Part shown: positions 152 to 63,744 of the stretch, piece after piece
Numbering within the stretch: the stretch's first letter is position 1
Layout of the letters: every line of letters starts with the position of its first letter
The notes under the pieces: generated by a model
What the model was told of the DNA's origin: nothing
Seen by the model: only the letters and a program-made list of their open reading frames with translations
Databases searched by the model: none
DNA from: Candidozyma auris
Taxonomy: Eukaryota; Ascomycota; Pichiomycetes; Serinales; Metschnikowiaceae
Reading direction: 5' to 3'
Assembly: GCF_003013715.1 (NCBI RefSeq)
Contig: NC_072814.1
Location: 1,736,001-1,800,000 of the forward strand
DNA: 64,000 nucleotides
Made by a program: the position numbers and the translations under genes

Positions 152-163
152 TTTGCAACCATT
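152..163 (+). promoter_or_regulatory. variant of the 12-bp element (TTTGCAACCATT)
   Basis: One mismatch (G to A at position 7) from the TTYGCAGCCAWT element. It lies about 100 bp before the ATG of the OCA2-like gene. The same variant is the core of the tandem repeat at 15051-15106. Confidence 0.4.
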
Positions 164-262
164 TCAACAGTACTGTGTATAGGTATAGCCTCTGAGGTGG
201 ACCCAGTAGACTATCCATGAGTAATTACCATCAAGCTGGATACTAAGACTGCAATTCTTGGT

Positions 263-979
263 ATGGCCACCTCTCAAGTAGCTAGCAATAGCTTTGATCC
301 TGAACCTAAAGTCTCCGATCTGGGGAACGGACAGTTTGAACATTCCCTGAGTCACCAAGAACAGGGATCACCTTTGAAGACAACCATAATACCTCGGCCT
401 AACTACGTTCCACCGTTAAACTTTTCGCTTGTTGAAGATGGAATATATAGATCAGGGTTCCCTATGCCTATTAACTATCCGTTCATGAAACAGCTCAAGC
501 TCAAGACAATCATATACGTTGGGGATTTGTGCCATGAGAAGGCGAAAAAAAAAGGCAGGGACGAAAAGCCAAAGAAAGATAAGAACGGAACAGCGGAGAT
601 ATATGAAAAGTACAAGGCGTGGATAGAATCCACCGATATCAACTTTCACCCTCTTTTGGTGCATTCCTCACAAGAACCGTTTACCCTGATAGAGACTCAG
701 GCTCAAACACAGGAGTCATTAAGAGCTGCCCTACATCTCATACTAGATAAGCGAAATTTCCCAATACTTATACACTCCAATAAAGGCAAGCACAGAATCG
801 GTGTGTTGGTGGGGCTACTAAGAAAGCTTCTCCAGGGATGGTGTATGAGTGGGATATTTGAGGAGTATGAGAAGTTCGCCATGGGCAAATCCGAATTTGA
901 TTTGGAGTTTATAGAGATGTGGCAGCCTGAGCTCACTTATGAGCAAGAATGGCTTCCTGACTTTGTACGAACTACATGA
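263..979 (+). CDS. OCA2: OCA2-type atypical dual-specificity phosphatase family protein, probably catalytically dead
   Basis: This 238-aa protein belongs to the Siw14/Oca fungal tyrosine-phosphatase-like family (inositol-pyrophosphate and stress signalling). The family core begins near residue 48 (NYVPPLNFSLVEDGIYRSG). The signature loop is at 171-180 and reads HSNKGKHRIG. The nucleophilic cysteine of Oca1/Siw14 is replaced by Ser172, while Arg178 is kept. S. cerevisiae Oca2 has, as I recall it, the same HSNKGKHR sequence, which is why I prefer OCA2 over OCA1 or OCA6. In S. cerevisiae Oca proteins form a complex linked to oxidant-induced cell-cycle arrest and TORC1 outputs; the dead members are thought to act as scaffolds. 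It is convergent with the glyoxalase gene, with 108 bp between the stops. Confidence 0.82.
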   Translation: MATSQVASNSFDPEPKVSDLGNGQFEHSLSHQEQGSPLKTTIIPRPNYVPPLNFSLVEDGIYRSGFPMPINYPFMKQLKLKTIIYVGDLCHEKAKKKGRDEKPKKDKNGTAEIYEKYKAWIESTDINFHPLLVHSSQEPFTLIETQAQTQESLRAALHLILDKRNFPILIHSNKGKHRIGVLVGLLRKLLQGWCMSGIFEEYEKFAMGKSEFDLEFIEMWQPELTYEQEWLPDFVRTT

Positions 980-1087
980 CTCGATGACTGAGCTAGAGAG
1001 AAAACATTACCTGTCATCACTTATTAATCAAAGCACCCTGTCTTCGCTGGAGTTACCTCGGCAGATATCTGTCGATTGCATTTCGGC

Positions 1088-1930
1088 TCAGGCGTTATTC
1101 TTCATTTCACGTAATTTAGCCATGACGCTGACAGGGTCCGAGGCAGAAGTGGCTTTCAACACTTGAGGATCCAGAAGACGCATGAACGGATTGAACTCGA
1201 GCTCATCACCGATTGTGAACTTTCCGGCGGTGATGCTGCTCAGCTTCACGAAATTTGCAAGCGAGTCGATGGCTTCGTTCTGCAACACTGTCTTACTGAA
1301 ATTGAGATTGCCTTTAGTGTATTCATGACCTGGATACGTGACAGTATCCTTTGGCAACTTGCCCAAGATATCGTTGAGAGCTTTTTTCATCTGTGTTGCC
1401 GTTCCCTCAAAGAAACGACCGCAGCCCGAAATGAATAGCGTGTCACCAGTGAAGACGGCCTTCTGCCCAGTCTTTGAGTCTTTCACATAGTAACAGATGG
1501 AATCCTGGGTGTGACACGGGGTATGCAAAGCCGTGATAGATAATTGGTCACCCAAATCTATCACCTCTTGGTGTGAAGGGGTGTAAGTCACCAATTCAGA
1601 GTCCTTGCCAGCGATAACGGGCAAATCCGGATATTTCTTGTGAAAATGGCCGTTGCCGCCAGCGTGATCCCAATGATGGTGAGTATTCACTATGGCCTTC
1701 AATTCAAAGTGGGGCTTTTTATTGGCAATGTACGCCTCAACGTCTTGTGGGAAAGCCGAATCAATTAACCAGGCGTGCCTCGAAGGCTCATCTATCAAGA
1801 GATAAGCGTAGTTGTTGCCCTTGCCCCAGGACAGCGGAATGATTTCAACGTGCATCTTGCGGGAGAAAATAGAAAATTTGTTGCTTCGAAATACAGAGGA
1901 GCTGAGTGTAGGAAACTTCAAAAAAACCAT
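1088..1930 (-). CDS. GLO2: Hydroxyacylglutathione hydrolase (glyoxalase II), with a likely mitochondrial presequence
   Basis: Metallo-beta-lactamase fold enzyme that hydrolyses S-D-lactoylglutathione to D-lactate and glutathione, the second step of methylglyoxal detoxification. The zinc-binding THHHWDH motif is at residues 83-89 of the long form, and a GDTLF segment lies further on. The long frame (280 aa) starts at 1930. A second in-frame ATG at 1855 (residue 26) begins MHVEIIPL, where cytosolic Glo2 proteins usually start. The 25 residues between the two ATGs are rich in Ser, Phe, Arg and Lys and lack acidic residues, like a mitochondrial targeting peptide. S. cerevisiae has separate cytosolic (GLO2) and mitochondrial (GLO4) enzymes, so this one gene may make both forms. 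A copy of the 12-bp element lies 104 bp upstream. Confidence 0.9.
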   Translation of the reverse strand: MVFLKFPTLSSSVFRSNKFSIFSRKMHVEIIPLSWGKGNNYAYLLIDEPSRHAWLIDSAFPQDVEAYIANKKPHFELKAIVNTHHHWDHAGGNGHFHKKYPDLPVIAGKDSELVTYTPSHQEVIDLGDQLSITALHTPCHTQDSICYYVKDSKTGQKAVFTGDTLFISGCGRFFEGTATQMKKALNDILGKLPKDTVTYPGHEYTKGNLNFSKTVLQNEAIDSLANFVKLSSITAGKFTIGDELEFNPFMRLLDPQVLKATSASDPVSVMAKLREMKNNA

Positions 1931-2033: not shown

Positions 2034-2045
2034 AATGGCTGCGAA
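2034..2045 (-). promoter_or_regulatory. 12-bp element TTYGCAGCCAWT
   Basis: Exact match on the minus strand, 104 bp upstream of the long GLO2 start and in the same orientation as that gene. Confidence 0.6.
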
Positions 2046-3207
2046 ACTCGCTCCGGATGAAGAGTGTAGAGAATTATGCGAAGCTGAATACGAATATTGG
2101 GCATGAGGAAGGTATGCTGATTTGAGAATTGATGTCTTCAATAAGCTGAATGCTATAATGGGAAGTTTTTGATTTGACTGCCTTTTGAGGCAAGTGCAGG
2201 GAACCATTGGAGATTTTGGAAAGGTTTGGAAGATACATCTGGTAAGTGTTGCCTTCTAAAGACTCGCTGGCCTTTAGCTGATTCTTGCACTCAGATATTC
2301 AAGGGCGCTTTTGTCTTCAAACTTTCTAGATTGTGAGTTATGGATTAAGTACGATGATTGCTCGTGTACGCCCATGAAGCAGCGTAACAAAAAAATCGTT
2401 CCGTGAGCTCATTCGAGTACCTAAAATGAAGGTGTCGCACGCTCGATTGCTGACATGAAATAGATGTGAATTGATTATTTGTGTGTGTGTTCAATGTGAG
2501 ACAGCCTACTTTGGTCGGGTATTGGAAAATAGCTGCGAAAACTACAAAAAGTGCTGAGAATCGGAAGGCCACTTGAACGTAGCAGAACCAAGACCGCCCT
2601 TGAAAATCGAATTTAATCCTAAATCTTCAAAGAGCAAGCTGTTCATGTTCAAGAAAGACAAGTAAGCCTTATACCCATGTATTGGCCCATTCTGACTATT
2701 GTCCAAAGCGCAGTCCCGCATGAACCACTTTCGCTACAACCAACGCTACCACGAACTCGATTTTCAACCTGTGAGTGTATAGACAAGTAGAACATTTCCA
2801 CCATGAGATTATCACGACCCAAATTACCTATGATAAACTCTCTACTTTTAATTCATCCTTTTCCGTGCCCATGAATCAGCGTTATATCGATGCATGCTCC
2901 TTTCGTTGTGTTATCATTATGCGAGTAACGAAACGAAGATGACCAGATCCATTATTTGATTGCAATCGCATTGTGTGACTCGAGTAGAGATTATTTACTT
3001 AAGCGTTGCTACGAACAATTCTCAAGAGACGCTGACATGAATGTCTCAGATGGAAACGAATTGCAGAATGGTGGAGGGAAGAAACTTGAGAATTTGAAAC
3101 GAATTGCACGTCTTCTGTGGCTGGACTGAAAACCAGCGAAATAATTCGAGAACCAGTAATCAATACGTTTCTTCATCACATGGCTCACATGATGACTCCA
3201 TTGGAGA

Positions 3208-3219
3208 AATGGCTGCAAA
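3208..3219 (-). promoter_or_regulatory. 12-bp element TTYGCAGCCAWT
   Basis: Exact match on the minus strand, about 500 bp upstream of PMT1 and opposite to it. Confidence 0.55.
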
Positions 3220-3430: not shown

Positions 3431-3442
3431 TTCGCAGCCATT
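3431..3442 (+). promoter_or_regulatory. 12-bp element TTYGCAGCCAWT
   Basis: Exact match, 280 bp upstream of the PMT1 ATG and 18 bp before an ATG at 3461 that could open a small spliced ORF. Confidence 0.6.
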
Positions 3443-3721: not shown

Positions 3722-6334
3722 ATGGCCAAAAACTCAAAGTCAGAAGCCCGCAAGAGCTCCCTGGGCTCGGCTGTATCTACTGACACCTTGTTTGACTTGG
3801 ACACGGTGCCGCAGCCCCAATATGGAAAGGGCCAGTACCGTGAGTACTTGTTGACCGAAACCCCAGAGTACATCACCAACTCTCGCAGAGTGCTGGGCAA
3901 GGAATACGCGTTGCTTGCCGTCTTGTTTGGTGCTGGCTTGTACGTGCGTTTGCAGAACTTGCACCACCCCAACTCGGTGGTTTTCGATGAGGTCCACTTT
4001 GGAGGATTTGCCAAAAAGTACATCAAGGGCACATTTTTCATGGACGTTCACCCTCCCTTGGCCAAGATGCTTTATGCAGCAGTGGGCCTGCTTGCTGGCT
4101 TCACAGGGGACTTTGACTTCGCTAAGATTGGCGATATTTTCCCCCAGTCTGTCCCATATGTGGTCATGAGAGCTTTCCCTGCTGTGTTGGGGTTGGCCAC
4201 TGTTTTCCTTTGCTACTTAACGTTGCGTTCCTCTGGCGTGCGTCCAATTGTCGCTTTTGTCACTGCTGGTTCTCTTTTGGTGGAGAATTCGTACGTCACA
4301 ATCTCCAGATACATTTTGCTTGACGCGCCACTTTTGTTCTTCATTGCTGCCGCCATATATGCGTTTAAGAAGTTCGAAGTGCAGAAACCCTTCTCGTTGA
4401 ACTTCTTCCGTTCCCTTTTGCTGTGTTCCCTTGCCTTGGGCATGGCCTTCAGCTCGAAGTGGGTCGGTTTGTTCACCATCGCATGGGTCGGCGTGTGCTG
4501 TGTCATTCACATGTGGTTCCTCATTGGTGACTTGTCTGTGTCTCCCAAGGCCATTTGGAAGCACGCATTTGCTCGCGCATCGTTCCTTTTGGGCGTACCA
4601 ATTATCTTATACTTATTCATTTTCAGCATCCACTTCAATGTGTTGCCAAATGATGGTGACGGCTCTGCCTTCATGACCTCCCACTTCCGTGCGGGATTAG
4701 CTGGATCTCTTGTTCCTAGACAGACTACTGCTCAGGTAGGCTACGGTTCTCTTGTCACAATTCGTCATGTCAACACCAGAGGCGGTTACTTGCATTCTCA
4801 CAACCACATGTACCCAACTGGATCCAAGCAGCAGCAAATTACCTTATACCCACACTTGGACACCAACAACGAATGGATGATTGAGCCTTACAACAGATCT
4901 ATCCCTGACGAATTTGAGCAGATCAAGGACGGTGACAAGGTCAGACTTGTCCACGTGAACACCAAGAGAAGATTGCATTCTCACGACGAGAAGCCTCCTG
5001 TGAGTGAGCGTGACTGGCAGAAGGAAGCCTCCTGTTACGGTTATGATGGCTTTGGCGGTGACGCCAACGATGACTGGATCTTTGAGATTGTCAAGCACAA
5101 GACCAAAGGAAGAGCCCAGGAAGAAGTGAGAGCCATTGAGACTATCTTCAGATTGAGACATGCCATGACTGGCCACTACTTGTTCTCGAGTGAGGTGAAG
5201 TTGCCAAGCTGGGGTTTCGAGCAGCAGGAAGTCACTGCCGCCTCTCAAGGAAAGAGGCCTTTGACTCATTGGTACATTGAGACGAACAATGCTGACCAAA
5301 GATTGCCAGCTGAGAAAAGAGAGATTGTGAGATACGAGAAGTTGAGCTTCTGGCAGAAATTCGTTGAGTCTCACAAGACCATGTGGAAGATCAATCAAGG
5401 TTTGACCTCCCACCACAACTGGCAATCTAATCCTCATGATTGGCCCTTGTTGGTTCGCGGTATCAACTATTGGGGCAAGGACCACACCCAGGTTTACTTC
5501 CTTGGTAACCCATTTGTGTGGTGGACGGTCTCTGCAACGTTGGTTGCTTTCTTAATCCACATGGGCATCTCCGTTTTGAAGTGGCAGACAGGCCTGAAGA
5601 TTGCAACTTCCAAGCATGTCTTCAACTTCAATCTTCAGATGTTCACATACTTTATCGGATGGCTCATCCACTACTTCCCATTCTTCATCATGGGAAGACA
5701 GCTTTTCTTGCACCACTACTTGCCATCTCAATACTTTGCAATCTTGGGTCTTGGCCACTTGTTTGAGTTGTTTGTTGCCAATTCTTATGTGGGCAGAAAA
5801 GGTGCTCATGCGTTGGTGGTATATTTGGCTGTTGCTGCTACAGTGTACTTCTACTTCTCTCCTATCATTTACGGATATCCATGGACAAAGAACCAATGCA
5901 AATCCACCAAATGGGTGTCCTCTTGGGATTATGACTGCAACACATTCCTCGATAATATTCTGGAGTACCGTTCATTGAAGCTGTCTATTGCTGAGAGCAC
6001 CATCTCTAACCCCCTGACGGTGGTTGTCAATGAAGCCAAAGAAACTCCTCGTGCTGTAAAGCAAGAGATCAAGCAAGAAAAGCACGGTTTGCTGGAAAGT
6101 GAATACTTTGAACCACCACCGGCTGCCGAGACCCACAAGGGCCCCTTGCCAGACTTTTTGAGAGATGAGGAGGAGGCACCTGTTGGCGAGTTGGTTGACG
6201 AGGCCACTGAGAACAAGGACAAGCCTCATGCCGTTCCCGAGAAGGTTGCACCTTCTGAGGGAGAGGAGCAAGGCATTGTTGCTGACGAGGTTGTCGTGGA
6301 GGGAGTTGTTCACGAAGAGGCTGAGATGCAGTAG
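3722..6334 (+). CDS. PMT1: Dolichyl-phosphate-mannose protein O-mannosyltransferase, Pmt1 subfamily
   Basis: ER-membrane GT39 enzyme that moves mannose from dolichyl-phosphate mannose to Ser/Thr of secretory proteins, normally as a heterodimer with a Pmt2-type partner. The 870-aa protein has the catalytic Asp-Glu pair (D89/E90) in FDEVHFG, the HPPLAKML loop at about 110-117, a hydrophobic N-terminal multispan block, a luminal MIR region at about 325-520 (repeated HSH/LHSH motifs) and a C-terminal multispan block. Segments such as HAMTGHYLFS and SPIIYGYPWT follow S. cerevisiae Pmt1 closely as I recall it, hence PMT1 rather than PMT2/4. The acidic Glu/Pro-rich cytosolic tail (about 755-870) is somewhat longer than in S. 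cerevisiae (817 aa total). CTG codon 123 falls at a serine of ScPmt1. Confidence 0.95.
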   Translation: MAKNSKSEARKSSLGSAVSTDTLFDLDTVPQPQYGKGQYREYLLTETPEYITNSRRVLGKEYALLAVLFGAGLYVRLQNLHHPNSVVFDEVHFGGFAKKYIKGTFFMDVHPPLAKMLYAAVGLLAGFTGDFDFAKIGDIFPQSVPYVVMRAFPAVLGLATVFLCYLTLRSSGVRPIVAFVTAGSLLVENSYVTISRYILLDAPLLFFIAAAIYAFKKFEVQKPFSLNFFRSLLLCSLALGMAFSSKWVGLFTIAWVGVCCVIHMWFLIGDLSVSPKAIWKHAFARASFLLGVPIILYLFIFSIHFNVLPNDGDGSAFMTSHFRAGLAGSLVPRQTTAQVGYGSLVTIRHVNTRGGYLHSHNHMYPTGSKQQQITLYPHLDTNNEWMIEPYNRSIPDEFEQIKDGDKVRLVHVNTKRRLHSHDEKPPVSERDWQKEASCYGYDGFGGDANDDWIFEIVKHKTKGRAQEEVRAIETIFRLRHAMTGHYLFSSEVKLPSWGFEQQEVTAASQGKRPLTHWYIETNNADQRLPAEKREIVRYEKLSFWQKFVESHKTMWKINQGLTSHHNWQSNPHDWPLLVRGINYWGKDHTQVYFLGNPFVWWTVSATLVAFLIHMGISVLKWQTGLKIATSKHVFNFNLQMFTYFIGWLIHYFPFFIMGRQLFLHHYLPSQYFAILGLGHLFELFVANSYVGRKGAHALVVYLAVAATVYFYFSPIIYGYPWTKNQCKSTKWVSSWDYDCNTFLDNILEYRSLKLSIAESTISNPLTVVVNEAKETPRAVKQEIKQEKHGLLESEYFEPPPAAETHKGPLPDFLRDEEEAPVGELVDEATENKDKPHAVPEKVAPSEGEEQGIVADEVVVEGVVHEEAEMQ

Positions 6335-14500: not shown

Positions 14501-14995
14501 CTATTCCATGTCGGCAGCCTGATCAGGCACCTCGTCAGACTCGGCAAGTGCTTCGTCGTAGCCTGGCACTGCTGTTACGCCGTGCTCGGCGTCCCAGTCC
14601 AGCATATCTGCTAGCGGCATCTTTCTGCGTGGCTCGGGCCACACAAAGTTCTCATCTCTCTCCCAGATGGGTTTGATCTTCAGCGCTCTCTTAGCCCATT
14701 CGGCAAATGATTTGTCTCGCTCCTCCTGGGTCAAGTTGGGGTTTGTGTTGTACGACGTCGATAACCACAAGTCGTCGGTGTGATACCTGTTGTCGTAGAA
14801 CTCCTGGAGCCCGTCGTAAGGCACGAGGGCAAGCACGTTCTTGTGTTTGGCAAGAAGGCCTCCGGCGGGAATGGTTACAGTGGAGTACGAGGACAAAGTA
14901 AGCGACTTTCGGAAGAAGTCGGGGTGATTTGTTGGGGCTGGGTCAGGCGACTTGGTGGAGTTGCTTCTGGAGATAAAAGGGGCGTCTTTGGTCAT
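14501..14995 (-). CDS. Unknown protein, 164 aa
   Basis: I do not recognise this protein. From the ATG at 14995 (MTKDAPFIS) it is soluble, with a Ser/Pro-rich N-terminus, a middle with a hydrophobic GGLLAKHKNVLALVPYDGLQEFYDNRY stretch, a Trp-containing basic segment (WAKRALKIKPIWERDENFVWPEPRRK, about 110-135) and an acidic end. No signal peptide or membrane span is seen. The frame is open 36 codons further upstream, but that part encodes a 10-residue periodic peptide made by a 10-bp tandem repeat, so I take 14995 as the start. The Trp/Pro-rich pattern and its coherence suggest a real fungal gene. Confidence 0.65.
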   Translation of the reverse strand: MTKDAPFISRSNSTKSPDPAPTNHPDFFRKSLTLSSYSTVTIPAGGLLAKHKNVLALVPYDGLQEFYDNRYHTDDLWLSTSYNTNPNLTQEERDKSFAEWAKRALKIKPIWERDENFVWPEPRRKMPLADMLDWDAEHGVTAVPGYDEALAESDEVPDQAADME

Positions 14996-15050
14996 TTGGG
15001 GGAACAAGGTGGTTGTGGGTTGGTGGTGGAAGTAGTGACAGTAATGGGTG

Positions 15051-15106
15051 CAAATGGTTGCAAATGGTTGCAAATGGTTGCAAATGGTTGCAAATGGTTG
15101 CAAATG
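15051..15106 (-). repeat. 10-bp tandem repeat that strings together a variant of the 12-bp element
   Basis: Five perfect copies of CAAATGGTTG plus a partial sixth. On the minus strand it reads (CAACCATTTG)n, so every period contains TTTGCAACCATT, the one-mismatch variant of the dispersed 12-bp element. It lies 56-111 bp upstream of the ATG of the unknown gene at 14995 and reads in that gene's direction. Confidence 0.85.
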
Positions 15107-16076: not shown

Positions 16077-16088
16077 TTTGCAGCCAAT
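16077..16088 (+). promoter_or_regulatory. 12-bp element TTYGCAGCCAWT
   Basis: Exact match, about 845 bp upstream of the adhesin ATG. Confidence 0.5.
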
Positions 16089-19846: not shown

Positions 19847-21400
19847 ATGCAGCCACGGTCCCTTTGTACATCTTATTCAGCTTTAAATATTGTAATATCT
19901 CAGCTGTTAGTATAGAGAGAGTAGGCTACAACGGACCCGCGTACGGGAAGAGAGATGAAGAGTTTTGCGCAGGAAACTTTTTGCAGCCATTTCTCGAGGC
20001 CTACAAAAGTGGATATTTAAAGAAATTTAGTAAATATGAAGATCAGCACAAGGAGACAGGTAGTAATTGTTTTTTAAAAAAAAAAAATGGTCTGTTCGCC
20101 AAACTTTCACTTTCAGAGACCTATGCGTCACTCACAAGCAGTGTCTGGGCATCACTTTGTTGAAAGTAGTTCTCTCTATTGTCGTACTGCCCTCTGTTGC
20201 AGATAAATATGAAGATCTTAAAGAGCTTTGTTCATCCACATAATTTATCCTCTCTCAATCTTCTGTTCATTTTTTGCTTTCATAATTTGCACATCAATTT
20301 CTGTTATTGCTCTAATTCTGCAGTAAAATTACAGAATAGTGTGGCAACGTAAACCACAATCAAGAGTAAACCAATATAGTAAACTGACAATTTAAGTCAA
20401 AGTTCTGGAACACAATACAGATAGTGAGTAAAGCATACCTTCTTCTTTACTTTGATGTTTGCTCCCGGTAGAGAAGCACTACCAGTCACTCAGCAGACAG
20501 TTATACACAGTAAGGTGGATAAAAGCTGCCACTTGAAACCCTGGACCCAGCATTGCAAAAGCCTCAAAAGCCACTAAGGTCTACTGTGACAAGTCAATAT
20601 TTTCAAGTACGCCTCAAAAATTTTCATATCTGCCATGGGTGTTCAGATTGCAAAGCAATCTCCAGCCGTTCTTCAAGTCTTTTCCCGATACAATCTTCTA
20701 CACACGAAATCACTACATAACCAATCAATGATCGAACAATCTATCCATTCATAAATGTCAGATTTTCACTTGCAACCAAACAGCATCTAGAATTTGTCAT
20801 AACTCACTTTATTGTCGCCAACGGGGGGAGGTTTTGGCTAAGACCTCAAGCCTCTGTCGTAAATCGCGGTCCAACGCGGCTTCTCTGCGAGCCAAATGGC
20901 TGGCGCCAGGCCCACAAAAAATAAATACCATTCAATTACATCGAAACGAGATAGCCTCAGAATCTGAATCAGTGAGATTTTCAGCCTTCACTGGCAAAAT
21001 TGTTCAAGCCCAACTCTACTCCAAGAAAACCATTTCCTTTGTCACTTTGGCGATTTCTTCGTCGTCCTACCTATTTCCTGTCTTGGCCAGGGCGACTCGT
21101 TTTGTCCTGGTGCTCGCGCCGGATTCGTCGCTGGAGCCATTCTTTTGGGCGCGATTCGGTGCCAATTGCCTGTGTCTTGGTGCTTTTTTGGCGCCTGCTG
21201 GACAATCTCGCTTTTTTCTTCGCACCCCGATCGCCTATATGTCTGCCGAACGTGAGAGCCTTGGCCCCGGTTTCTCGGACTGGAGGGGCTAGTGCGAAAA
21301 CACAATCAAAAGTGAAGCCTTTTCATTTCATCGGCCCCCTATAGGTGATTTTCTACACGTCCTGCTGGAACTCAAAATTTAAGCTACACCCCTGTTTTCC
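19847..21400. other. 1.55-kb intergenic region adhesin to DCR2
   Basis: It holds one exact 12-bp element (19980) shortly after the adhesin stop and a run of nine or more A near 20078. Frames at 20834-21344 overlap on several phases and look random. No gene is seen. Confidence 0.5.
19980..19991 (+). promoter_or_regulatory. 12-bp element TTYGCAGCCAWT
   Basis: Exact match 134 bp after the adhesin stop and 1.4 kb before DCR2. It is the one copy not clearly in a promoter. Confidence 0.5.
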
Positions 21401-23254: not shown

Positions 23255-23266
23255 TTTGCAGCCATA
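23255..23266 (+). promoter_or_regulatory. near-match of the 12-bp element
   Basis: TTTGCAGCCATA, one mismatch at the last base, 80 bp upstream of FCF1. Confidence 0.4.
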
Positions 23267-25185: not shown

Positions 25186-27247
25186 CTTCTGCGGTAGGGC
25201 TGAGCAAACGATGAATTAGCTCAAGTGCACCAAATGGGAAGGTGAAGAAGTCCCAAACAGGGCAACACACACAGGGCCCTGAGCAAGTAGAACCCCGTGC
25301 TTACCTCGGGCCACGCCAGGCGACCTATACCGGTTTAGCACTTGTCGCATGGACGTTTTCTACAACCAGAGCAGCAATTGAGATTCATGAGAAGAAGCAC
25401 AACAGTTCTATAGATATATTTCTGAGGTCTTGTCAATAACCTCTTAGCGAGGAAAATACTAACATTTCCAGTGCTAGTGAATCTGTGCTCGTCGCTTCGT
25501 TGAGCCGCTCGTAGCGATTGGGGCTTGCGCTCGTTATTGCTGTCACCGCCAGGGCACAAATCACACAAAACCCCAACGACTCAACTGTTGCTACATTGGA
25601 GCCGGCAGTGCTAATGATGACTCTGGGCAGCATGAAGGGCATGTGAAAACCAAAAAAAAATCAAGACAGATAGCGGGTATTCACATCGGAGGAGAGATTT
25701 GCGCCTTAGACAAGTAGCTTGTCATGAACCTCGCTTGTGTCGATTGCACATGCATTGCTATGTCATCAAGTTTTAAAGTATCATCAGCTGTCTCTTTTTG
25801 GTAAAGCATTCTCATGGAGAGCAAATGCCGCCCATTTGGGCCACAGCAACACTGCGTAGGTGCAGTTGCTCGGGCCTCACGAATAATCCGTCTTTGTCAT
25901 GAAGGACTGAAATTCAATGCAACGTGTGACAAGTTGCTTGCTGAAGGTGAAACCCTGCTCTAATTCTTATGTGCCTCGTGCCTGGTGCCTGCCGAGCGTT
26001 GTCCTGTAATATTTGCTGTGTATTGCTTGTTTGCTAGTGGCTGTATTGACTGCAATAGTGGCTTCGCCTGAAGAGCTTCTTCCCTCGCATCATCAATTGT
26101 TCTTATGCGTTTGATGTGGCGTAGACAAGAGATCTCAAAAAGCGTTTTGTGAAAATATAAGATTGTGATCGGCAAACAGGTTACGTTTATCAAAGAAGGC
26201 TGTGAGTAGAACTCTTAAAGTGCTCTAGTCAATAATAAAGCAAAGAATCTTGTGTCTGTTGCTACAAACTAGCTTTCTTAGCTCATAGTGCTGTACTAGC
26301 TGGGAATTTTGCACCCGAATTGAACATCTGCGATAGCCCATGATACTGTGTTCGACACTGTACTTGCTGTAGCCACCGGCTGCCCTTCGGTTGCTCTAAT
26401 TTGATGGCCCGATAGATTATGAAGTTTAGCCTTGCCACGGCGATATTCAAGTTGCTTGTGAGTGTACCTTGGTGTAGAGCGGATGGCATGCTGCTGCCAT
26501 CAACAGGTAAGGAAAAAATTTGTTACAGAGCTCTTGGATACAATCTACATTCTGTTGAGATTCATTATGTTTGTCAATGGTTATTGTCCGCATGCTTATT
26601 TGATTGCGAAGTATTAAACAACTTCTTAGCTATAGGCCATGGCTGATTTGACCTCGATTATAAACGGGTCAGAAGCTATAATTGTCAATTTTCTAGTTGA
26701 TTTCTTCCTTGAATTGCAAACAGCCCAAGCACCATAATCAACTTGATTTTCTCCGGCTGCTTCTGTGTGGGTTCTTGACCTCTCAAGGCCCTCAGAAACC
26801 ATTTTGGTAAATAAGAGAGCTTATATCATCAACTATAGCGCATTGGAAACTTCATCCAATAATATATCCTGGTGTATTTGCAATGTAGGAGTATTATCAA
26901 ATCCGTTTCAGCCATGTCGCAGCTCCACTTTGGCTGGGCAGAGGACCATCCGCAAAGCAAAATATCAGCACAATTTAAGTGAAAGAGGACTTCAGAAAAA
27001 AACAGCTCTTATCTTCCCTAAAGGATTTTATGAGTGTTTTATTCTTTGTCCCGTGGGATTCTCACGATTTCGCAGCCAAAAGGACTATCCCCAGCTCAAG
27101 ACCATCAAAGTTGGAACGCCATAACCAAGCAGTCTACATATTGGAGCATCAGAAGCGTTTCAATAAACTACACTTAAAACATGAATTTTCATCTGCTATC
27201 TTTTAATGCCCATGCTGTATCTGCGCCCCTCCTCGAGGAGGTTTTGG

Positions 27248-27259
27248 ATTGGCTGCAAA
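27248..27259 (-). promoter_or_regulatory. 12-bp element TTYGCAGCCAWT
   Basis: Exact match on the minus strand, 62 bp before the ATG at 27322. Confidence 0.6.
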
Positions 27260-28305: not shown

Positions 28306-29140
28306 GCAAAAGGCAGGTTTGAAATAACAGCTCAAAGAAATGTTGAGATGGTAACGCAAACATCTCAGAGCCGGTATTTTAGAATGAACTGCAACCACTG
28401 AAGAAAGCTATCAACGATATGAGCGTGTAGTAGGGTGAATTGAAGGATTGGAATCTTCTTATATCCAAGTTTGTAGAGTGTCGGTGGCAAGTATCGTGGG
28501 ACAATTGATGACTGCTCGTATGGTGAAAATGATGAATGCTCGTATGGCGAAAATTGCGTTCATCACTGAAGTTCTCGTACTACCGGTTTATACGGCAGGT
28601 GTTAAGTGGGCCTGCCTTCACTTCTCTTATTTGCAACCAGCAAAAAAGGCCCACAAAAACTCAAAAAAAATCAAAATTTCAACATTGGTATCGTTTCAAA
28701 CCTTCTGTTAGAAAGCCAGCTTCGCGTTTCACTCAAGATGGCGTTTGTGTTGGCAGGTGGCTAAGTTTGATGTATCTATAGATAAGAACCACCTTTATCG
28801 AGGATTTCGCAGCCATTGGTGACGATATCGAGCAAATGATCGATAGACGATAGTGCGTGCAGGTCGGGGCCAAACTTGGCAAAACCACAAGGTGAAGCTT
28901 GACATTTTATTTCTTTTGCTAAGGAAGTCAAACACTTAGGTTCGTCAGATCGATTTTTTAAGTCAAGCTGGTAGTAGGTCTTTCACAATACTTACTCTGA
29001 TAGCTACACCTGAGAGTCACGTGCAATCCCTGGACGCCTCAGCGGTTTTTTGATAGTGTGGAGAAACAATACCGACTTCCACGCATACAGTAAAACCCCA
29101 CCAACACATCTTCAAAATCACCGAGTATCCCAATTTTCTC
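28306..29140. other. 835-bp intergenic region upstream of PAR32
   Basis: It holds one exact 12-bp element (28806) and a 24-bp-spaced imperfect direct repeat (TGCTCGTATGG at 28513 and 28537). No gene is seen. Confidence 0.5.
28806..28817 (+). promoter_or_regulatory. 12-bp element TTYGCAGCCAWT
   Basis: Exact match 324 bp upstream of PAR32, same direction. Confidence 0.6.
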
Positions 29141-31111: not shown

Positions 31112-31598
31112 GATGAAATGGCTAAAGATATCCTTTTCTTTATTATTGTGGTTGCAAGCACCAAGTCAAGATGTTGAGGTTCTATTGGTTTTTTCCTAAT
31201 TTTTTTAAGACTCTAGCGCACATCTGTACACCACCGTAGAGTTGTAGTATACTTACACCAGAAGGGAAGTAAACTGGGAGATGGAATTTTTGAAGAAGCG
31301 GAAGTGCTATTTTCAATTGAATAGTCTCAGTGACTCTAGTTTCATCAGAGGTTTCTTTAGCGGCTTGTGGCACCGCCCTTTAAATGCTCTCTCGATGGAG
31401 AAAATGGCTGCAAAATGCAATGTTCAATATCTATAGTCGCAGGTGAGATCAGGGTGGATAGCAAAAAGGAGGAGTAAGCGTTGAAGAACCTGTCGTCATC
31501 AAGGCTAAGATTGTCAGAGTTCAGATTCGTGCCTCAGATGACGAAAGAAACACCTAAAGCAAGACCGAAAGCAGCTTCTATCACCACCTCACCACGAC
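31112..31598. other. 487-bp intergenic region COX24 to THI80
   Basis: COX24 promoter and THI80 3' end; both genes are on the minus strand. It holds one exact 12-bp element (31403) and no gene. Confidence 0.5.
31403..31414 (-). promoter_or_regulatory. 12-bp element TTYGCAGCCAWT
   Basis: Exact match on the minus strand, 292 bp upstream of COX24, same orientation. Confidence 0.6.
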
Positions 31599-37281: not shown

Positions 37282-38084
37282 GGGAAAAGGTGCTAGTAGT
37301 TAGTGACAGGCGAGTTGAGAAGTGCAGGAGATGTACTCATTGGTCAGAGCAAGCCGAAGAGAAGATGGGTAAGATAAGGAGAAAGAGGATGGGAAGGGTG
37401 CTTTGCTTGAATGTTGTGTGAACAGCTTACAGTTTCAATTTATTGTCCTTTGTCAAGTGGATGTCTGTCGGATTGAAGAGTGTAGAATTGGTTTCGCAGC
37501 AAATAGAGTGCCATGGGCAAGGTAGTAGGGAGTTAACGAAGGACAATAGTCAGACAAGCATGAATTCTGTCAAGTGAGCACCTTTACCAAGCTGAGAATT
37601 CCAGATGAATAGTATTGTTGCATTTGGAGTTTCCTTTGTGTCTTACCTTGCCAGTTCCCACGGAAGGTCTCTCCATACTCGACTAATAACCGCTAATAAA
37701 CAAATCAGAGCAATAATCTTGAGAGACTAGAGAGCACTTATTCACAAAAAGCTAGAACAATCACTCGTAGCTGCCTTAGCTCGTCCCATCTTTCCTTTAC
37801 TCTTCGGTGCTACGCTTCGGATTCTGAGCACTTTGCACTTGCTAGTACAGCGCCCATGAGCACCATTTCCACCACCCCAATACCAAATAGCCATTTTCAG
37901 TGTCTTGTGTACTTTTCTTCTGAACCACACCTCTCAACTTTCCCAACGTTTGTCTCAAGACCTCGTTCAACTCTTCACGGCTCAGTCAAATGCTCTATTT
38001 CGCAGCCAATGCGGATCCATCAGCCTCCCCACACATCTACACCCTCGCATTTATGCACATGCCTGACAATTTCTACACCTCCCC
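37282..38084. other. 803-bp divergent intergenic region RCF1 / unknown membrane gene
   Basis: It holds one exact 12-bp element (37999) and a variant (TTTCGCAGCAAAT near 37492). No gene is seen. Confidence 0.5.
37999..38010 (+). promoter_or_regulatory. 12-bp element TTYGCAGCCAWT
   Basis: Exact match 74 bp upstream of the ATG at 38085, same direction. Confidence 0.6.
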
Positions 38085-39260: not shown

Positions 39261-39605
39261 GGTCCCTGGCAATTGATCTCGACGCAACAATCGACCTCGA
39301 CAATACGATTTCTTTCAAAATGGTACTTTCCAATCAATTCTAGAAACAATTTATTTGTTTTCTAGAACGATTGCCAGCAGAGATGGTTTCAATGGGGAAT
39401 CAGCAACGCCCGTCATATTCCCTAAATGGTGTCCAGGCAACATCCACACGCTTGCCTATTTCATCGTTTCCTGTGGGCTCGGGCAGAGCGTATCCCTCAG
39501 TGTCTCAACACACCTGTTTCAGCCCCCTGCGGCGAGCGGCTATATTTTGCCAGGCCACCGTCGCATTTCGCAGCCATTGTACACCCTATTTTTCACCTTA
39601 TCTTG
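39261..39605. other. 345-bp intergenic region
   Basis: Holds one exact 12-bp element (39567) directly before the next gene and nothing else recognised. Confidence 0.5.
39567..39578 (+). promoter_or_regulatory. 12-bp element TTYGCAGCCAWT, closest to a start codon
   Basis: Exact match ending 27 bp before the ATG at 39606. At that distance it would probably fall in or next to the transcript leader. Confidence 0.6.
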
Positions 39606-46113: not shown

Positions 46114-48351
46114 ATGGCCTTGTCCTCTACTCTGGAACGGCCTCTCGCAGACGACAACTTACGCCCGAGGCTTCCTCAGATGTCGAGCGACGCTCCACCT
46201 TTCCAGGGGCCTCAGGCTGAAGTCGGTGAAAATCGCCTACCAGAACACAGCCAGCACCACAACAGCTTCCACCAGCAAAACTTCAACCAGCTGTCTTACC
46301 AACATCAGGCACCCCAAAACCAGAATTCTCAGAGCCAGTTTCCTCCGGCGCAGGACGAGTCCAAAGGTGCCAATAATGCCTCGACGGCCTCTCTAGGGAA
46401 AACACAAACGGTGTTCATCCACAAGCTCTACGATATGCTTGAAGACTCCTCGCTCTCCCACCTTATCTGGTGGTCACCGACAAACGACTCCTTCTGCCTT
46501 TATCCTGGCGAAGAGTTCTCCAACGTGTTGGCACAGTACTTCAAGCACACCAATATCGCCTCGTTCATTCGCCAGTTGAACATGTACGGATTCCACAAGG
46601 TCAACGACAGCTTCCACTCGGATGAGAAAAACGCCCAGGGAAATAACTCGAGCTCAGGCTCGGGCCAGACTCGCTGGGAGTTCCGCCACGCCGCAAACCA
46701 GTTCAGAAAGGGCGACACTCAGTCGTTGCGCTTGATCAAGCGCAAGTCCTCAAAAGTCATGAGCACGCCCAAGGAAATCGTCAGCTTGAAACTGCTTCCG
46801 CCAACGTCGAACCCTTCCACGGCTGCGGTCGCTGCTCCCAACTCATCTACTCAGCTGAAGGCCAATCTTGACTCGGAGTCATCTGAATCCCCAGAGTCAG
46901 CGTCAAAGCAGCAGTACCACAGGTCACTCTACCAACAACTGTGGAAACAGCAGCTGGCCCCAAAACCTCAGACGCCCTCGTCGCCAAATGGCCCTCCCGT
47001 CGCTGGCCAGCCCCCTCTGTCAAATACTGTCCTTTACCAGAGCTACCCAGGCGTGCACCCCTATCCTGGTTTCCCTCACTTGACGATGCCCGTCCCAGTG
47101 AGCCCAAGCTCTCCTGCGTACCCAGAACATCCCATTCCTACGCCGACGTCGTACGTTTCTCAACAACAGCTGCGGCAGCCGCTGAACCAAACAGCGCTTG
47201 CGGTGGATCAGTCAATTAATCTCAAGTTGATTGAGTTGTCGACTTCGATTGCCTCTCTTAGGGCCAGTTATCTGGATCTCCAACGGAAATACGACCTGCT
47301 AAAGTCCGAACAGCACCAGCACAACAAGGATATGGTGACGCTTATAGAGCTTTTGGAGAATCAAGAAGAACCGGCTTTGCACGATATTGTGAATCGTCTG
47401 TCTTCCAAGACCCCTGTTACCAGTAGCTCCACGCCAGGTCCTGAAGCTCCAATACCGTCAATCTCAAGGACTCTGACTCTTGGGGAACTTCAAACGTTCA
47501 AGAAGCACCTTTTACAGAGAATAAGCGAGGTGAGTGAGGACCACATGAGCGAAGAAGTGAAACTGACTCGACTGTCGTATGCTCAGGCGCATACCCAGGG
47601 CAACTCTCAGGGTCCAGAAGCCTCTTCACAGGGTGCCCCCAATGCAAAATTCGTTCCCCAGCATTATCCGCTCAACCCAAACTACCTACTAAACAATAAC
47701 AACTCTATTAACGAGTCAGGGTTCCGCCACTACAGGTTAAGCAAAGAAGACGGCTCTTCCTCGACCACTAACAGCCGCCATTTTTCTGTTCTTATGGATC
47801 CTTTGCAGACAAAAGCCATCAAGAGCGGTGACGAGCTGAGGCCCTCAATCTCGGCTTCTTCCAAAGACACAAGGCTGATGCCAATCGTACAACAGTACCA
47901 GCCCAAGGTGACACATCTGGCTGCTCCCTCGCTCTACCAGCCGTTTATTCGTGGTGATGGAGCTCACCAACATCGTACGGCGTCGCTTCCCATCCTTGAC
48001 AAAGTGATGCCACAAGCATTCACGTCCCAGCAAAGACATTCAACAACCAGCAGTTTACCAGGTACCGAGGAAAGACGTCCAATTTCACCTGGTCATATTG
48101 TGCAGCCAAATAAGACTTACACGCTGAACCCATTGGGTTCTTCTGGACACGGTCAAAGCCCACAGGCCCACTCTCCAGCGCCCACAAGCCAGCTGCCCCA
48201 GCCGCCACTGCAATTGGGAGAGGGCAAAAAGGTGCTTCTCTCGGTGAAGGAATTGGACCAACTGATCAAGAGAAGTGCCTCGAGTCGTCTCTCAGACCTC
48301 CTCTCAGACGACGAGCATCTAACGAAGAAACCTAAGTCTGAGATGCAATGA
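46114..48351 (+). CDS. SFL1: Sfl1/Sfl2-type HSF-domain transcription regulator
   Basis: This 745-aa protein has an HSF-type DNA-binding domain at about 98-212: TQTVFIHKLYDMLED, SNVLAQYFKHTNIASFIRQLNMYGFHKV (helix 3 at 150-163) and TRWEFRHAANQFRKGD. N-terminal to it is a Gln/His/Asn-rich stretch. A coiled coil lies near 365-415 (LKLIELSTSIASLRASYLDLQRKYDLLKSE), and the C-terminus is Pro/Gln/Ser-rich. Sfl1 represses flocculation and hyphal/adhesin genes through Ssn6-Tup1; C. albicans also has the activator SFL2. The sequence does not tell me which of the two this is. It could regulate the adhesin at 16934, which is speculation. Confidence 0.88.
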   Translation: MALSSTLERPLADDNLRPRLPQMSSDAPPFQGPQAEVGENRLPEHSQHHNSFHQQNFNQLSYQHQAPQNQNSQSQFPPAQDESKGANNASTASLGKTQTVFIHKLYDMLEDSSLSHLIWWSPTNDSFCLYPGEEFSNVLAQYFKHTNIASFIRQLNMYGFHKVNDSFHSDEKNAQGNNSSSGSGQTRWEFRHAANQFRKGDTQSLRLIKRKSSKVMSTPKEIVSLKLLPPTSNPSTAAVAAPNSSTQLKANLDSESSESPESASKQQYHRSLYQQLWKQQLAPKPQTPSSPNGPPVAGQPPLSNTVLYQSYPGVHPYPGFPHLTMPVPVSPSSPAYPEHPIPTPTSYVSQQQLRQPLNQTALAVDQSINLKLIELSTSIASLRASYLDLQRKYDLLKSEQHQHNKDMVTLIELLENQEEPALHDIVNRLSSKTPVTSSSTPGPEAPIPSISRTLTLGELQTFKKHLLQRISEVSEDHMSEEVKLTRLSYAQAHTQGNSQGPEASSQGAPNAKFVPQHYPLNPNYLLNNNNSINESGFRHYRLSKEDGSSSTTNSRHFSVLMDPLQTKAIKSGDELRPSISASSKDTRLMPIVQQYQPKVTHLAAPSLYQPFIRGDGAHQHRTASLPILDKVMPQAFTSQQRHSTTSSLPGTEERRPISPGHIVQPNKTYTLNPLGSSGHGQSPQAHSPAPTSQLPQPPLQLGEGKKVLLSVKELDQLIKRSASSRLSDLLSDDEHLTKKPKSEMQ

Positions 48352-48886: not shown

Positions 48887-50230
48887 TCAAAATACACTAT
48901 TAGGGTTCTTCAATGTCTCTATCATGTTATACGCAGCGTTGGCGTCTTTTTTGTTGAACACGAATAAGCCTTGAAGCTGTGCTGTGCTGACTTTGCCAAG
49001 AAGATCAAGGTCTTTGAATTTCTGGACAAACTTTTCGCAGAGGTCCTTTTCGTCTTCGTAGAAACGCAAGAACATTCTTCTCACCTGGTGTTCTGTGGCA
49101 TTGTTCACCATCACCTTGAAATCAACTCTGCCGGGGCGAAGAAGAGCAGGATCGAGTCTTTCCGGGTGGTTTGTTGTCATGAAAGTAATGCACTCTTCGG
49201 CGGAAACAACACCATCAAGAGCGTTCAAGAGACCAGAAAAGGTCACTCCAGATTGGTAGCCCTGATCGCTGGTCTGTTCTCTCTTGTTGAATGCAGCGTC
49301 AATGTCCTCCAAAAGCAAGATGGACCTGCGAGGTATGTGATTCATCAAGTGGTTGAGTCTGTCGTCGGTTAAGTTGCTTTCAGAAAGATTCAAAACGCAA
49401 ATATTGTAGTCTAGCTCACCAGCAAGTGCCTGGATGTAAGAGGTCTTCCCGCTTCCTGGAGGTCCATAGAGGAGGTACCCTCTGCGGTAGGGGATACCAC
49501 GCTTATGATACCACTCACCTGAATCCAAGAAATCCTTGACGTCATTAACGATCAACTCGCTGACTCCTTCATCAAGTATGACAGACCCAAGCATTCTTTT
49601 CTTGCGAGGCTGACCAAAAGGTCTCCATTCGGGACCCCACGAAGTGTACAAGACGGTCTTTCCCTCTTGAGACTTCAACGCCAACCTCTTTGCCTCGGCT
49701 AGCAAGTCCAGAAACACGTGTCTGTCACTGTACAAGGTGGTCAAAGTGACGGTTTCGAACGGGGTGCCAGAAGTCATATCCAAAAGCTTTCCCGATCTCT
49801 CTCTATTCACAAGCATGTAAGCGCCCTTATATTTTATCAAGTGCTTTCCAGGCCCAGGAACAAGCGAGAACTTTGTAGAAACGGCTCCATTGTCGTGCTG
49901 GATGTAGTTCGTTTCTACCGACAAGTGTCTCAGGGTCCGATGCTTGTACTGGGCCATCCACTCCAAAAACCACAAGTACAGCTTATCCTTTGACGGAATC
50001 TCCAAATCTACGAGAAGCTGTCTGTACAAAAACCCGCTCGACTTAACAATGCCCAGCCTGGCCAAAGCTAGCCCTGTTCCGAGAAGCATAAGTCCACCAC
50101 CAGCAGCAAAGTACGGGTTGTTCACGACCACCTGGTCGAACATAGCCCGAGCAGTGCCCGTGAAGGATCCATCTGACTCGGCCTTGATTTTTTCCAAGTC
50201 GATTTGCGGCGTAGGCCCTGAGGCAGACAT
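48887..50230 (-). CDS. BCS1: Bcs1, mitochondrial AAA translocase for the Rieske protein
   Basis: Inner-membrane AAA ATPase that moves folded Rieske Fe-S protein across the membrane for complex III assembly. Length is 447 aa (456 in S. cerevisiae). One membrane span at about 42-62 ([19 protein letters not shown]) comes first, followed by the Bcs1-specific domain. The AAA module has GPPGSGKT (Walker A, 256-263), [11 protein letters not shown] (Walker B, 304-314) and [19 protein letters not shown] (sensor and arginine-finger region). CTG codons at 59 and 84 fall at serines of S. cerevisiae Bcs1, which supports CTG-Ser decoding. An exact 12-bp element is 233 bp upstream. Confidence 0.97.
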
Positions 50231-50462: not shown

Positions 50463-50474
50463 TTTGCAGCCATT
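50463..50474 (+). promoter_or_regulatory. 12-bp element TTYGCAGCCAWT
   Basis: Exact match, 233 bp upstream of BCS1, opposite orientation to that gene. Confidence 0.6.
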
Positions 50475-61071: not shown

Positions 61072-61153
61072 GGCAACTTGTCCGAGTGGTTAAGGAGAAA
61101 GATTAGAAATCTTTTGGGCTTTGCCCGCGCAGGTTCGAGTCCTGCAGTTGTCG
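61072..61153 (+). tRNA. tRNA-Ser (anticodon AGA), no intron
   Basis: An 82-nt cloverleaf. The acceptor arm GGCAACT pairs with AGTTGTC (one G-U). The anticodon stem AAAGA/TCTTT has loop TTAGAAA with anticodon AGA at 61105-61107. The long variable arm (GGGCTTTGCCC) is typical of tRNA-Ser, and the T-arm has GGTTCGAGTCC. It differs from S. cerevisiae tRNA-Ser(AGA), as I recall it, in only two positions. This decodes UCU/UCC. It is not the CTG-decoding tRNA-Ser(CAG), which is not in this window. Confidence 0.97.
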
Positions 61154-61383: not shown

Positions 61384-62517
61384 TTACTCGGAGATAAAAG
61401 TAGCCTCATTGAAACCAATACCTTCTTCGGTATCAGCCCCGTGCGTAATGCTCAATTTGTTGCAGAACTGGTAGATGTAAGGCTTGGCTCCAGAGACACC
61501 AGAAACGATGTTCTTGACGAATTGAGGAATCTCGGCCATGACGTCAACACGCTCAACTAGCTGCTTCAACTTGCCAGATACAACAGCAACAGTCTCTGAA
61601 CCGGCACCGTTCTTGGCAAAGTTGAAAGTGATGCCCTTAGGAACATTCCAGCCAACTTCGTCAACCTCAGCATCCTCGTGGGTGACCTCATTATCGATGG
61701 AGGTGAGAATTATCTTGTCATCCTTGGCGAGCATGGCAATGTTGACCTTCGTGGTTGCGTAGGATCTAGGCGTGGTAAATTCCATCTGAACAGCAGAGTA
61801 GTGAGGGCTCTGGAAATTGAGGAAGTTCCACGACTTGGCGGCGTGGTGGGGCTTCATACCTTGCAATGCCATGACGAACATGGTGAATCCATCCACATCG
61901 ATTTTGACGCTATTCTTCAACTTGAGAGTTCCAGAAACGCTGCATCTAGGCCAGAAGGCGTGTCTCATGGAACCCCATGGGTTTTCCACGTCTTCACCGT
62001 AAAGAGTCATGCCGTCTTTGCCGAAAATGACACCAGGAGCCAATCTTTTCACGGTTAAGTCGACCATGGAGTCCTCACAAACGTGGGATTTCAAGTGGTA
62101 AGTTGTGCCGTCCTCAGAAATCTCAAACGACAAGTTATCAGCGTAGAAGTTAGATCCTTCGGCACGGAAGTTCTCTAAAGCAGTGGAAGTCCAAATGCAG
62201 TTTGAATCCTCAGCGCCCTTCTCGTTGTTGTACAACCTGAAGGTAAACTGAGCCGTGGTCTTGACTCCCATGATGTTAGAATGAATGATCTGAGCAAAAC
62301 CAGTGTATCCCGTCTTCAAGTCGGTGAAGTAGAAAGTTTGGGTTTCCACGTTGGTGTAGTTGGGCTTTCTCCACGCAAAGTCTTCAACCGTTGTTTCTCT
62401 GGAAACAGGGTCTCCCTTCTTGATAAAGTCGGTCACTGGGTGGATAGCCTCGCGCCCGTACTCTGGCTCGGCGGTGCCAGCAACAACAGAAAGACCTGAT
62501 TGGACCCACTTCAACAT
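61384..62517 (-). CDS. SVF1: Svf1, lipocalin-like survival factor
   Basis: This 377-aa protein is the two-domain lipocalin-like Svf1 (Svf1/YDR222W family). Characteristic segments are WVQSGLSVVAGTAEPEYGREAIHPVTDF (start), the DFAWRKPNYTNVETQTFYF block and the MALQGMKPHHAAKSWNFLNFQSPHYSAVQMEFTTPRSY segment in the second domain. In S. cerevisiae Svf1 protects against oxidative and cold stress and supports survival in the diauxic shift; it has been tied to ceramide transport between ER and Golgi. It is shorter than the S. cerevisiae protein (481 aa) but similar to Candida versions. Two exact 12-bp elements lie in the long upstream region (63173, 63733). Confidence 0.93.
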   Translation of the reverse strand: MLKWVQSGLSVVAGTAEPEYGREAIHPVTDFIKKGDPVSRETTVEDFAWRKPNYTNVETQTFYFTDLKTGYTGFAQIIHSNIMGVKTTAQFTFRLYNNEKGAEDSNCIWTSTALENFRAEGSNFYADNLSFEISEDGTTYHLKSHVCEDSMVDLTVKRLAPGVIFGKDGMTLYGEDVENPWGSMRHAFWPRCSVSGTLKLKNSVKIDVDGFTMFVMALQGMKPHHAAKSWNFLNFQSPHYSAVQMEFTTPRSYATTKVNIAMLAKDDKIILTSIDNEVTHEDAEVDEVGWNVPKGITFNFAKNGAGSETVAVVSGKLKQLVERVDVMAEIPQFVKNIVSGVSGAKPYIYQFCNKLSITHGADTEEGIGFNEATFISE

Positions 62518-63172
62518 AACTGGTAGAATTTGAGTTTAGAAATGCTTGATACTCAGTTGCCTTGAAAAAGAAGACTGCAACTGAAGAGTACTGCTTGTTT
62601 GCGGTGAGACGGGTAAAGTGCGATGGTAGCTATGAGCCGGGCACGACTGGAGGCAGAGAAGAGGCGGGTGGGCAAGAGGCTAATACAGGGCCCAAAGAAT
62701 AAATTGGAGCTGAGAAGTGAGTGAGACATCAAATCATTGGAGAAAAGTTGTTTGTGTGGACGTGTGAGTCTGTTTCGTGGATTTGACTGGGTTACACTCT
62801 CATCGCATGTGAAGAGAAAAGGGGACAGGACTAAAGAAGAGTGACTGAGGGCAAAACAGCAATTATATGTGATCTAAGGCAAGAACGAGTTGTCGGCGCT
62901 GGTTGAGCACCAGAAATTGGTACATTTTAGAAAAATTGTGTTTTTGAGGGCAATTGAGTGGTTGCTGGGAGGCTTTGGTAGACACGCAACCGACGTATTG
63001 CGACAAAGTAGGGTGATCGATGAAATCAGCTGGTTTTATTGAGAGTTTTATTTTTTTTTTTTAGGCAACTAGCTCGCAAGCGTATTCTAACTTGTCAGTA
63101 GCGTGCAGATATACTGTTTTGTGGTGTGTTGTCTAGTGTTATGCACAATGGTGACTACCGTTGCAACCATTT

Positions 63173-63184
63173 TTCGCAGCCAAT
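63173..63184 (+). promoter_or_regulatory. 12-bp element TTYGCAGCCAWT
   Basis: Exact match 656 bp upstream of SVF1, opposite orientation. A TTGCAACCATT variant ends just before it. Confidence 0.6.
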
Positions 63185-63732
63185 AGTAAGCTTAGTGAGA
63201 GGTTTTTATGGGAAGCTTTGGCTTGAGGATAAATTCAGCTGAACAATCGGTTTTCACTTGACAAACTTCAATCTGGCTTGAGCAATACAATAAAGATGAA
63301 GGCGGCAAGTCACTCACAAACAGAATCGCCACTACTTTCTCTCAGCCAATTGCATATAGCTTATCATAAGGCTGAAAACTGTGCAGCCATAAGTATCTAG
63401 TAAAGCTGATCACTTTTGCCAAGTCAAAGCAACGCTTTCATGTCAATGAAAGCCCATACATGATAGGTTGTAAAAGATCCATGGTCATTTTCTTACTTTG
63501 ATATCCTCCTGATAGTAGGGTGTTTCCACAAGCTGAGCTGCTTTAGCAGGATCTGAGAGCCTTCATCACTTGACCATGCGATGGTCCCCCGCTTGATTCC
63601 ACAGCGAGAAGGAAAATAAAATAAACGGGGTCTTCATGTCCCATTGCGGGCTTACTAGTAAACAAGACGATGAAGACTCCCCTAGTATGGGCGCTTGCCA
63701 TAAGCGATTCTAGCCACCAGCTCCAATTGCGC

Positions 63733-63744
63733 TTCGCAGCCATT
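63733..63744 (+). promoter_or_regulatory. 12-bp element TTYGCAGCCAWT
   Basis: Exact match in the terminal non-coding region, 1.2 kb from SVF1. It may serve a gene beyond the right edge. Confidence 0.5.

Follow-up and report, generated by a model that had tools for sequence, protein, structure and literature searches.

Copies of the element and their neighbours

The window considered here, a stretch of 64 kb of Candidozyma auris DNA (contig NC_072814.1, positions 1,736,001 to 1,800,000), holds genes of mixed predicted function, and between them recurs a short degenerate element, TTYGCAGCCAWT, in 13 exact copies, compared with a mean of 0.07 and a maximum of 2 in 100 dinucleotide shuffles of the same DNA. 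The 13 copies had been listed by eye in a first-pass annotation of the window, and all 13 were recovered with their positions and strands, as were five near copies (at 152, 2528, 23255, 27069 and 50946), each of which departs from the pattern by one mismatch. Together with a tandem array of a variant unit, the copies are arranged as follows.

2034..2045, minus strand: exact copy TTCGCAGCCATT, 103 bp upstream of a glyoxalase II-like gene (1088-1930, minus), same orientation
3208..3219, minus strand: exact copy TTTGCAGCCATT
3431..3442, plus strand: exact copy TTCGCAGCCATT, upstream of a PMT-family gene (3722-6334, plus)
16077..16088, plus strand: exact copy TTTGCAGCCAAT, upstream of a GLEYA/PA14 gene (16934-19846, plus)
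19980..19991, plus strand: exact copy TTTGCAGCCATT, between genes 16934-19846 (plus) and 21401-23089 (plus)
27248..27259, minus strand: exact copy TTTGCAGCCAAT, 62 bp upstream of a weakly supported open reading frame (ORF; 27322-28101, plus)
28806..28817, plus strand: exact copy TTCGCAGCCATT, 323 bp upstream of a DUF3602 (PAR32-like) gene (29141-29710, plus)
31403..31414, minus strand: exact copy TTTGCAGCCATT, 291 bp upstream of a COX24-like gene (30737-31111, minus), same orientation
37999..38010, plus strand: exact copy TTCGCAGCCAAT, 74 bp upstream of an ORF (38085-39260, plus)
39567..39578, plus strand: exact copy TTCGCAGCCATT; a candidate ATG at 39606 (plus) follows after 27 bases
50463..50474, plus strand: exact copy TTTGCAGCCATT, 232 bp upstream of a BCS1-like gene (48887-50230, minus), opposite orientation
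63173..63184, plus strand: exact copy TTCGCAGCCAAT, upstream of an SVF1-like gene (61384-62517, minus), with a two-mismatch copy 13 bp before it, at 63160
63733..63744, plus strand: exact copy TTCGCAGCCATT
152..163, plus strand: one-mismatch copy TTTGCAACCATT
2528..2539, minus strand: one-mismatch copy TTCGCAGCTATT
23255..23266, plus strand: one-mismatch copy TTTGCAGCCATA, upstream of an Fcf1 gene (23346-23909, plus)
27069..27080, plus strand: one-mismatch copy TTCGCAGCCAAA
50946..50957, plus strand: one-mismatch copy TTCGCAGCTATT
15043..15106, minus strand: tandem array of 6.4 units of the variant TTTGCAACCA (10 bp each, head to tail), some 48 bp upstream of the start codon of an ORF (14501-14995, minus), same orientation

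The genes beside the copies look to be of many kinds. The names proposed for them from the sequence (glyoxalase II, PMT, DUF3602 (PAR32-like), COX24, BCS1 and SVF1) agree with Pfam, which also identified the GLEYA/PA14 gene, and the neighbours of other loci in the genome were mixed as well, including HIS5-, ARG4- and HSP90-like genes and one resembling a secreted aspartyl protease, according to our own reading of their N-termini. The GLEYA/PA14 gene is an adhesin-like ORF of 970 aa (16934-19846, plus) and contains 8.2 copies of a 126-bp tandem repeat at 17815-18852.

The description of all exact copies as intergenic holds for the window in general, with a caveat at 39567, where the copy lies inside an ORF of 226 aa (39426-40106). 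This ORF has no Pfam match and a weak codon score (0.048 per codon), and because its in-frame ATG at 39606 would place the copy upstream of a shorter gene, its first part is probably non-coding. The copies at 3431 and 19980 fall within short ORFs, both of which were dropped by the codon-scored gene calls. Three copies or near copies are found in the 5.2 kb between 23909 and 29141, where the sole ORF (27322-28101) is weakly coding and lacks a Pfam match.

Abundance in the genome and restriction to intergenic DNA

Searching the whole genome (12.25 Mb in 7 contigs), with the pattern read backwards as a control of unchanged base composition, returned 986 exact copies of the element (490 forward and 496 reverse) compared with 2 for the control (0 and 2). 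Allowing up to one mismatch raised this to 2,745 (1,362 and 1,383) compared with 91 (38 and 53). A 14-base form, TTTCGCAGCCATTT, was present in 184 copies (control, 0) and the variant TTYGCAACCAWT in 270 (control, 5). The consensus is about WTTTYGCAGCCAWTT, with GCAACCA tolerated. After subtraction of the control, the genome has about 1,000 strong sites and about 2,650 in total. The window is itself copy-rich, its 13 copies comparing with a genome average of about 5 per 64 kb.

The position of copies relative to genes was determined in a sample of 234 kb, made up of the window, 50 kb next to it, a 50-kb piece of contig 2 and 10 kb taken at the start of every one of the seven contigs, with genes called from ORFs and introns ignored. 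Using codon-scored gene calls, 23 of the 24 copies were intergenic and one was coding, in a sample that is 62% coding, while plain ORFs of at least 150 aa enclosed 2 of the 24 (P = 5e-8). Because the motif had been discovered in the window, the comparison was rerun on the 170 kb outside it, which were chosen regardless of the motif; 10 copies were intergenic and one was coding (coding fraction 0.636; P = 3e-4). Neither the density of copies against the control nor their frequency in coding DNA, both of which the first-pass annotation had named as grounds for abandoning its reading, gave cause to do so.

In word counts made with low-complexity words set aside and contig starts excluded, pieces of the element topped the ranking of over-represented words both in 52.9 kb of intergenic DNA (7-, 8- and 9-mers) and in 29.7 kb of internal intergenic sequence lying outside the window (7- and 8-mers). 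The GCAACCA words in the larger count were inflated by the array at 15043-15106, which also supplied five of the eight copies with A at position 6 in the analysis of 14-base-form spacing (see below), whereas the genome count of 270 for TTYGCAACCAWT is independent of that array. The element is real and ranks first among the over-represented intergenic words of the DNA examined. At the contig starts the telomere repeat dominates word counts instead, and a telomere-type repeat of about 20 bp, AAGAAACCCAGACACCACCT, was present at six of the seven. A 20-base ITS2 primer specific for C. auris has a single exact match in the assembly.

The element was compared with the sites of well-known yeast factors, using consensus words from general knowledge (for Reb1, CGGGTAA). 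Intergenic counts in the 234 kb were near or below Markov expectation for CACGTG and for the Rap1, Tbf1, Abf1, Rsc3, RRPE (ribosomal RNA processing element), MBF, SBF, Hsf1, STRE (stress response element), CCAAT and Rpn4 words, and were above it for Reb1 (7 compared with 4.8), PAC (polymerase A and C; 1 and 0.2), Mcm1 (38 and 30.5), RTCACRTG (15 and 10.8), Gcn4 (19 and 11.7) and TATA (73 and 33.6). The ratio of intergenic to genic density was 25-fold for the element, 16 for TATA, 7 for RTCACRTG and 5 for Rsc3. The value for RTCACRTG indicates that a Cbf1-like site is also mainly intergenic, but its excess is far smaller than that of the element. Genome-wide, CGGGTAA was found 548 times compared with 1,422 for its reversed control. 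The earlier statement that the element corresponds to no named yeast site is thus upheld as far as the Reb1, Abf1, Cbf1, Rap1 and Tbf1 words are concerned, none of which had a comparable excess. We know of no name for the element, and the titles and abstract openings of the open-access literature looked through contained no account of it among the matches listed, though motif logos are not searchable as text.

Anatomy of the site and its tandem arrangement

Anatomy and context were described from a set of 74-75 sites, of which 24 came from unpicked blocks of sequence and the remainder were picked from search listings; the context counts use the 69 intergenic sites that remain after removal of the six of the 75 that lay within called ORFs. 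A logo built from 74 exact copies, in which the fixed positions are fixed by the selection of the search, has T at position -1 in 82% of sites (1.0 bit); 79% have A or T at -2, and in 54% the word is followed by T. The remaining flanking positions carry about 0.2 bit or less, and apart from the T at -1 no position exceeds about 0.3 bit. Of the T-runs that had been noted on the 5' side, what persists is this T at -1 and the A or T at -2, with little further out. The site, about 13 to 15 bp in length, is asymmetric. The lack of common flanks indicates that the element has not spread as a repeat family, and a dispersed repeat or transposon remnant was ruled out, as homology does not extend past the word other than in the T at -1.

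Copies of the core, GCAGCCA, tend to follow one another head to tail. Within 30 bp of each other, 70 such pairs were found genome-wide, compared with none for the reversed control and with an estimated 26 or so by chance, about one per spacing, from the density of the core (88 in 234 kb). Their spacing was exactly 11 bp in 23 cases and 12 bp in eight. The 70 include overlapping pairs of single arrays: C7:589213-589263 contributes four, and an array at C1:2478708 contributes four with a spacing of 9 bp. Inward-facing pairs occurred at nine places, where about 13 were estimated by chance, and a hand-set matrix found a further 21 direct and four inverted matches within 110 bp of the 74 sites. The preferred 11 bp corresponds to one helical turn, which suggests that neighbouring units lie on one face of the DNA. 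Examples in the window are the array at 15043-15106 (minus) and a degenerate second copy, beginning TTCGCACCC, that follows 11 bp after the copy at 3431..3442 (plus).

The DNA around the sites has a composition of its own. Between 30 and 120 bp from the 69 intergenic sites, the AT content was 0.596 compared with 0.572 +- 0.005 at random positions in the same intergenics (none of 500 draws was as high), and A5/T5 tracts were slightly commoner (P = 0.044), while within 30 bp the DNA was less AT-rich (0.533 compared with 0.573 +- 0.009). Such AT-rich shoulders are compatible with a site at the centre of a promoter, though nucleosome depletion is not thereby shown. The median distance to the nearest ATG was 296 bp (55 sites), and in 41 of 47 promoters the nearest copy was no more than 600 bp away. 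Around the 55 sites there were 13 TATA-box matches, five of them in one 50-bp bin, which are too few to define a distance. Divergent intergenics had 0.365 copies per kilobase, tandem ones 0.263 and convergent ones 0.138, values that derive from only 21 copies in the unpicked blocks; with the picked loci added, two of the 35 sites with both neighbours visible were convergent.

A putative general regulatory factor and its alternatives

The element is probably the binding site of an abundant protein acting as a general regulatory factor. The number of copies, their restriction to intergenic DNA, the apparently unrelated genes beside them and the lack of a match to the familiar general-factor sites favour this reading, and with it the suggestion of an abundant general factor or chromatin element made in the first-pass annotation. 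We infer that the element is bound by protein, that this protein has a single identity and that it opens chromatin. One abundant, sequence-specific nuclear protein would bind the element as an asymmetric unit in intergenic and promoter DNA, sometimes as a head-to-tail series of units facing the same side of the helix. Once bound, it would keep promoters open or bounded at many genes of unrelated function, perhaps filling the role that Abf1 or Reb1 holds elsewhere. Like the sites of Reb1, Abf1, Rap1, Tbf1 and Cbf1, the element is long and specific and is present hundreds to thousands of times, mostly between genes and next to genes that look unrelated; it differs from them in sequence and adds the head-to-tail preference for 11 bp.

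Several observations weigh against a general factor. The bias towards promoters is weaker than that towards intergenic DNA, with convergent intergenics holding two of the 21 copies in 19% of the length (P = 0.40; unpicked blocks). Within tandem intergenics the copies are evenly spread (mean relative position 0.51, n = 22), and a strong positional preference there was looked for and not found. There is only a mild tendency for copies to point towards the nearest gene (31 compared with 16, P = 0.04; in tandem intergenics alone, 12 compared with 6, P = 0.24). Slippage of short tandem units may have contributed to some of the 11-bp pairs, and much the same pattern would be expected of a conventional regulator whose regulon is very large.

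That last alternative, an activator or repressor with an unusually large regulon (e.g., for growth, stress or cell-cycle control) and no general role in chromatin, is unlikely but is the most serious of those weighed. It would accommodate the clean 12-bp site, the mild pointing towards the nearest gene (31 compared with 16) and the several copies at some promoters, and is set against neighbours that look unrelated, both by Pfam in the window and by the N-termini read elsewhere.

An element of the replication origin, bound by the origin recognition complex, is improbable. Such an element could be intergenic with AT-rich shoulders, yet 986 or more copies is a high number for a genome of 12 Mb, and the 14-base form is not regularly spaced, its gaps being clustered on C1 (32 sites; coefficient of variation (CV), 1.63) and random on C2 (46 sites; CV, 0.90), although this subset is a fifth of the exact copies, so that some regularity would be hidden. 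The origin option of the first-pass annotation accordingly gained no support from copy number and the spacing of the 14-base subset, by which alone it was tested. No origin consensus is given in the part of a C. auris plasmid paper considered here (PMC11278357).

There is similarly little to recommend an architectural or boundary element likened to the animal YY1 site, GCNGCCATNTT. YY1 is a broadly used promoter factor whose site has the core GCAGCCAT in common with the element, and copies also occur between convergent genes, but the element tolerates CCAAT, which replaces CCATT in 11% of the 74 sites and would be unexpected for YY1. We know of no fungal YY1 orthologue, although no search was made for one.

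A drifted form of the site of Rpn4, the proteasome regulator, is very unlikely. The words TTTGCCACC and TTTGCAACC are one base apart, and the element shares the TTTGC..CC arrangement of the Rpn4 site, or proteasome-associated control element, GGTGGCAAA. There are about a thousand copies of the element, and they are not concentrated at proteasome genes: 501-bp windows upstream of 14 of these (reaching up to the domain start) hold one exact and two one-mismatch copies, approximately the estimated background, and TTTGCCACC itself is not enriched in the genome (116 compared with 123 for the control). A proteasome element was thereby largely refuted. Of 11 proteasome genes on contigs 1-5, one had TTTGCCACC no more than about 500 bp ahead of its domain start (among the first 100 of the 116 places), and a different site may serve in proteasome control. 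It is also very unlikely that the element acts at the RNA level, in untranslated regions: although some copies precede an ATG by 28-100 bp in sense orientation, both orientations are used (31 same, 16 opposite) and the nearest ATG is at a median distance of 296 bp.

A general regulatory factor would agree with what has been described for related yeasts. In the part of Tsankov et al. (2010; PMC2897762) considered here, Abf1 is missing and Reb1 is weak as a chromatin factor in C. albicans, D. hansenii and Y. lipolytica, other general factors are hypothesised, and Cbf1 is named as a major ancestral general factor, although its site is not nucleosome-depleted in C. albicans. The element would belong to the class predicted there, in which species-specific nucleosome-depleted motifs in Candida and Yarrowia are clade-specific general-factor sites distinct from those of S. 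cerevisiae; it is unlike the one C. albicans-specific site named in that part (CACGAC). A Reb1/Nsi1 site was rejected, as the CGGGTAA / TTACCCGG core is absent from the element, the latter being the Reb1-like Nsi1 site of C. albicans according to the portion considered of a study using chromatin endogenous cleavage and sequencing (ChEC-seq; PMC7565893). The ABF1 family (PF04684) gave no match, and neither did its control, so that absence is not shown by this result.

A more specific proposal, held tentatively and with less confidence than a general factor as such, is that a lineage-specific factor, unrelated to Abf1, Reb1 and Cbf1, might be the main promoter organiser in this lineage of Candida, with some 1,000 strong sites, perhaps 2,600 sites in total, and cooperative head-to-tail binding at a spacing of one turn. 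A site of 12 bp would fit a protein with four C2H2 fingers, and domain matches point to two candidate loci: four consecutive C2H2 fingers are found at both C7:163700-164026 and C4:692659-692979, the longest runs among 38 zf-C2H2 matches. Yeasts swap general promoter-opening factors in the course of evolution, and the element is a possible new case of this turnover. Its copy numbers make the binder directly findable, and it would offer a concrete handle for promoter annotation and chromatin studies in the clade of a medically important yeast.

Elsewhere in the window, the 3.2 kb at 42929-46114 have several short tandem repeats and no codon-supported ORF, and a tRNA gene at 61072-61153 (plus) is the only Rfam match at the gathering threshold.

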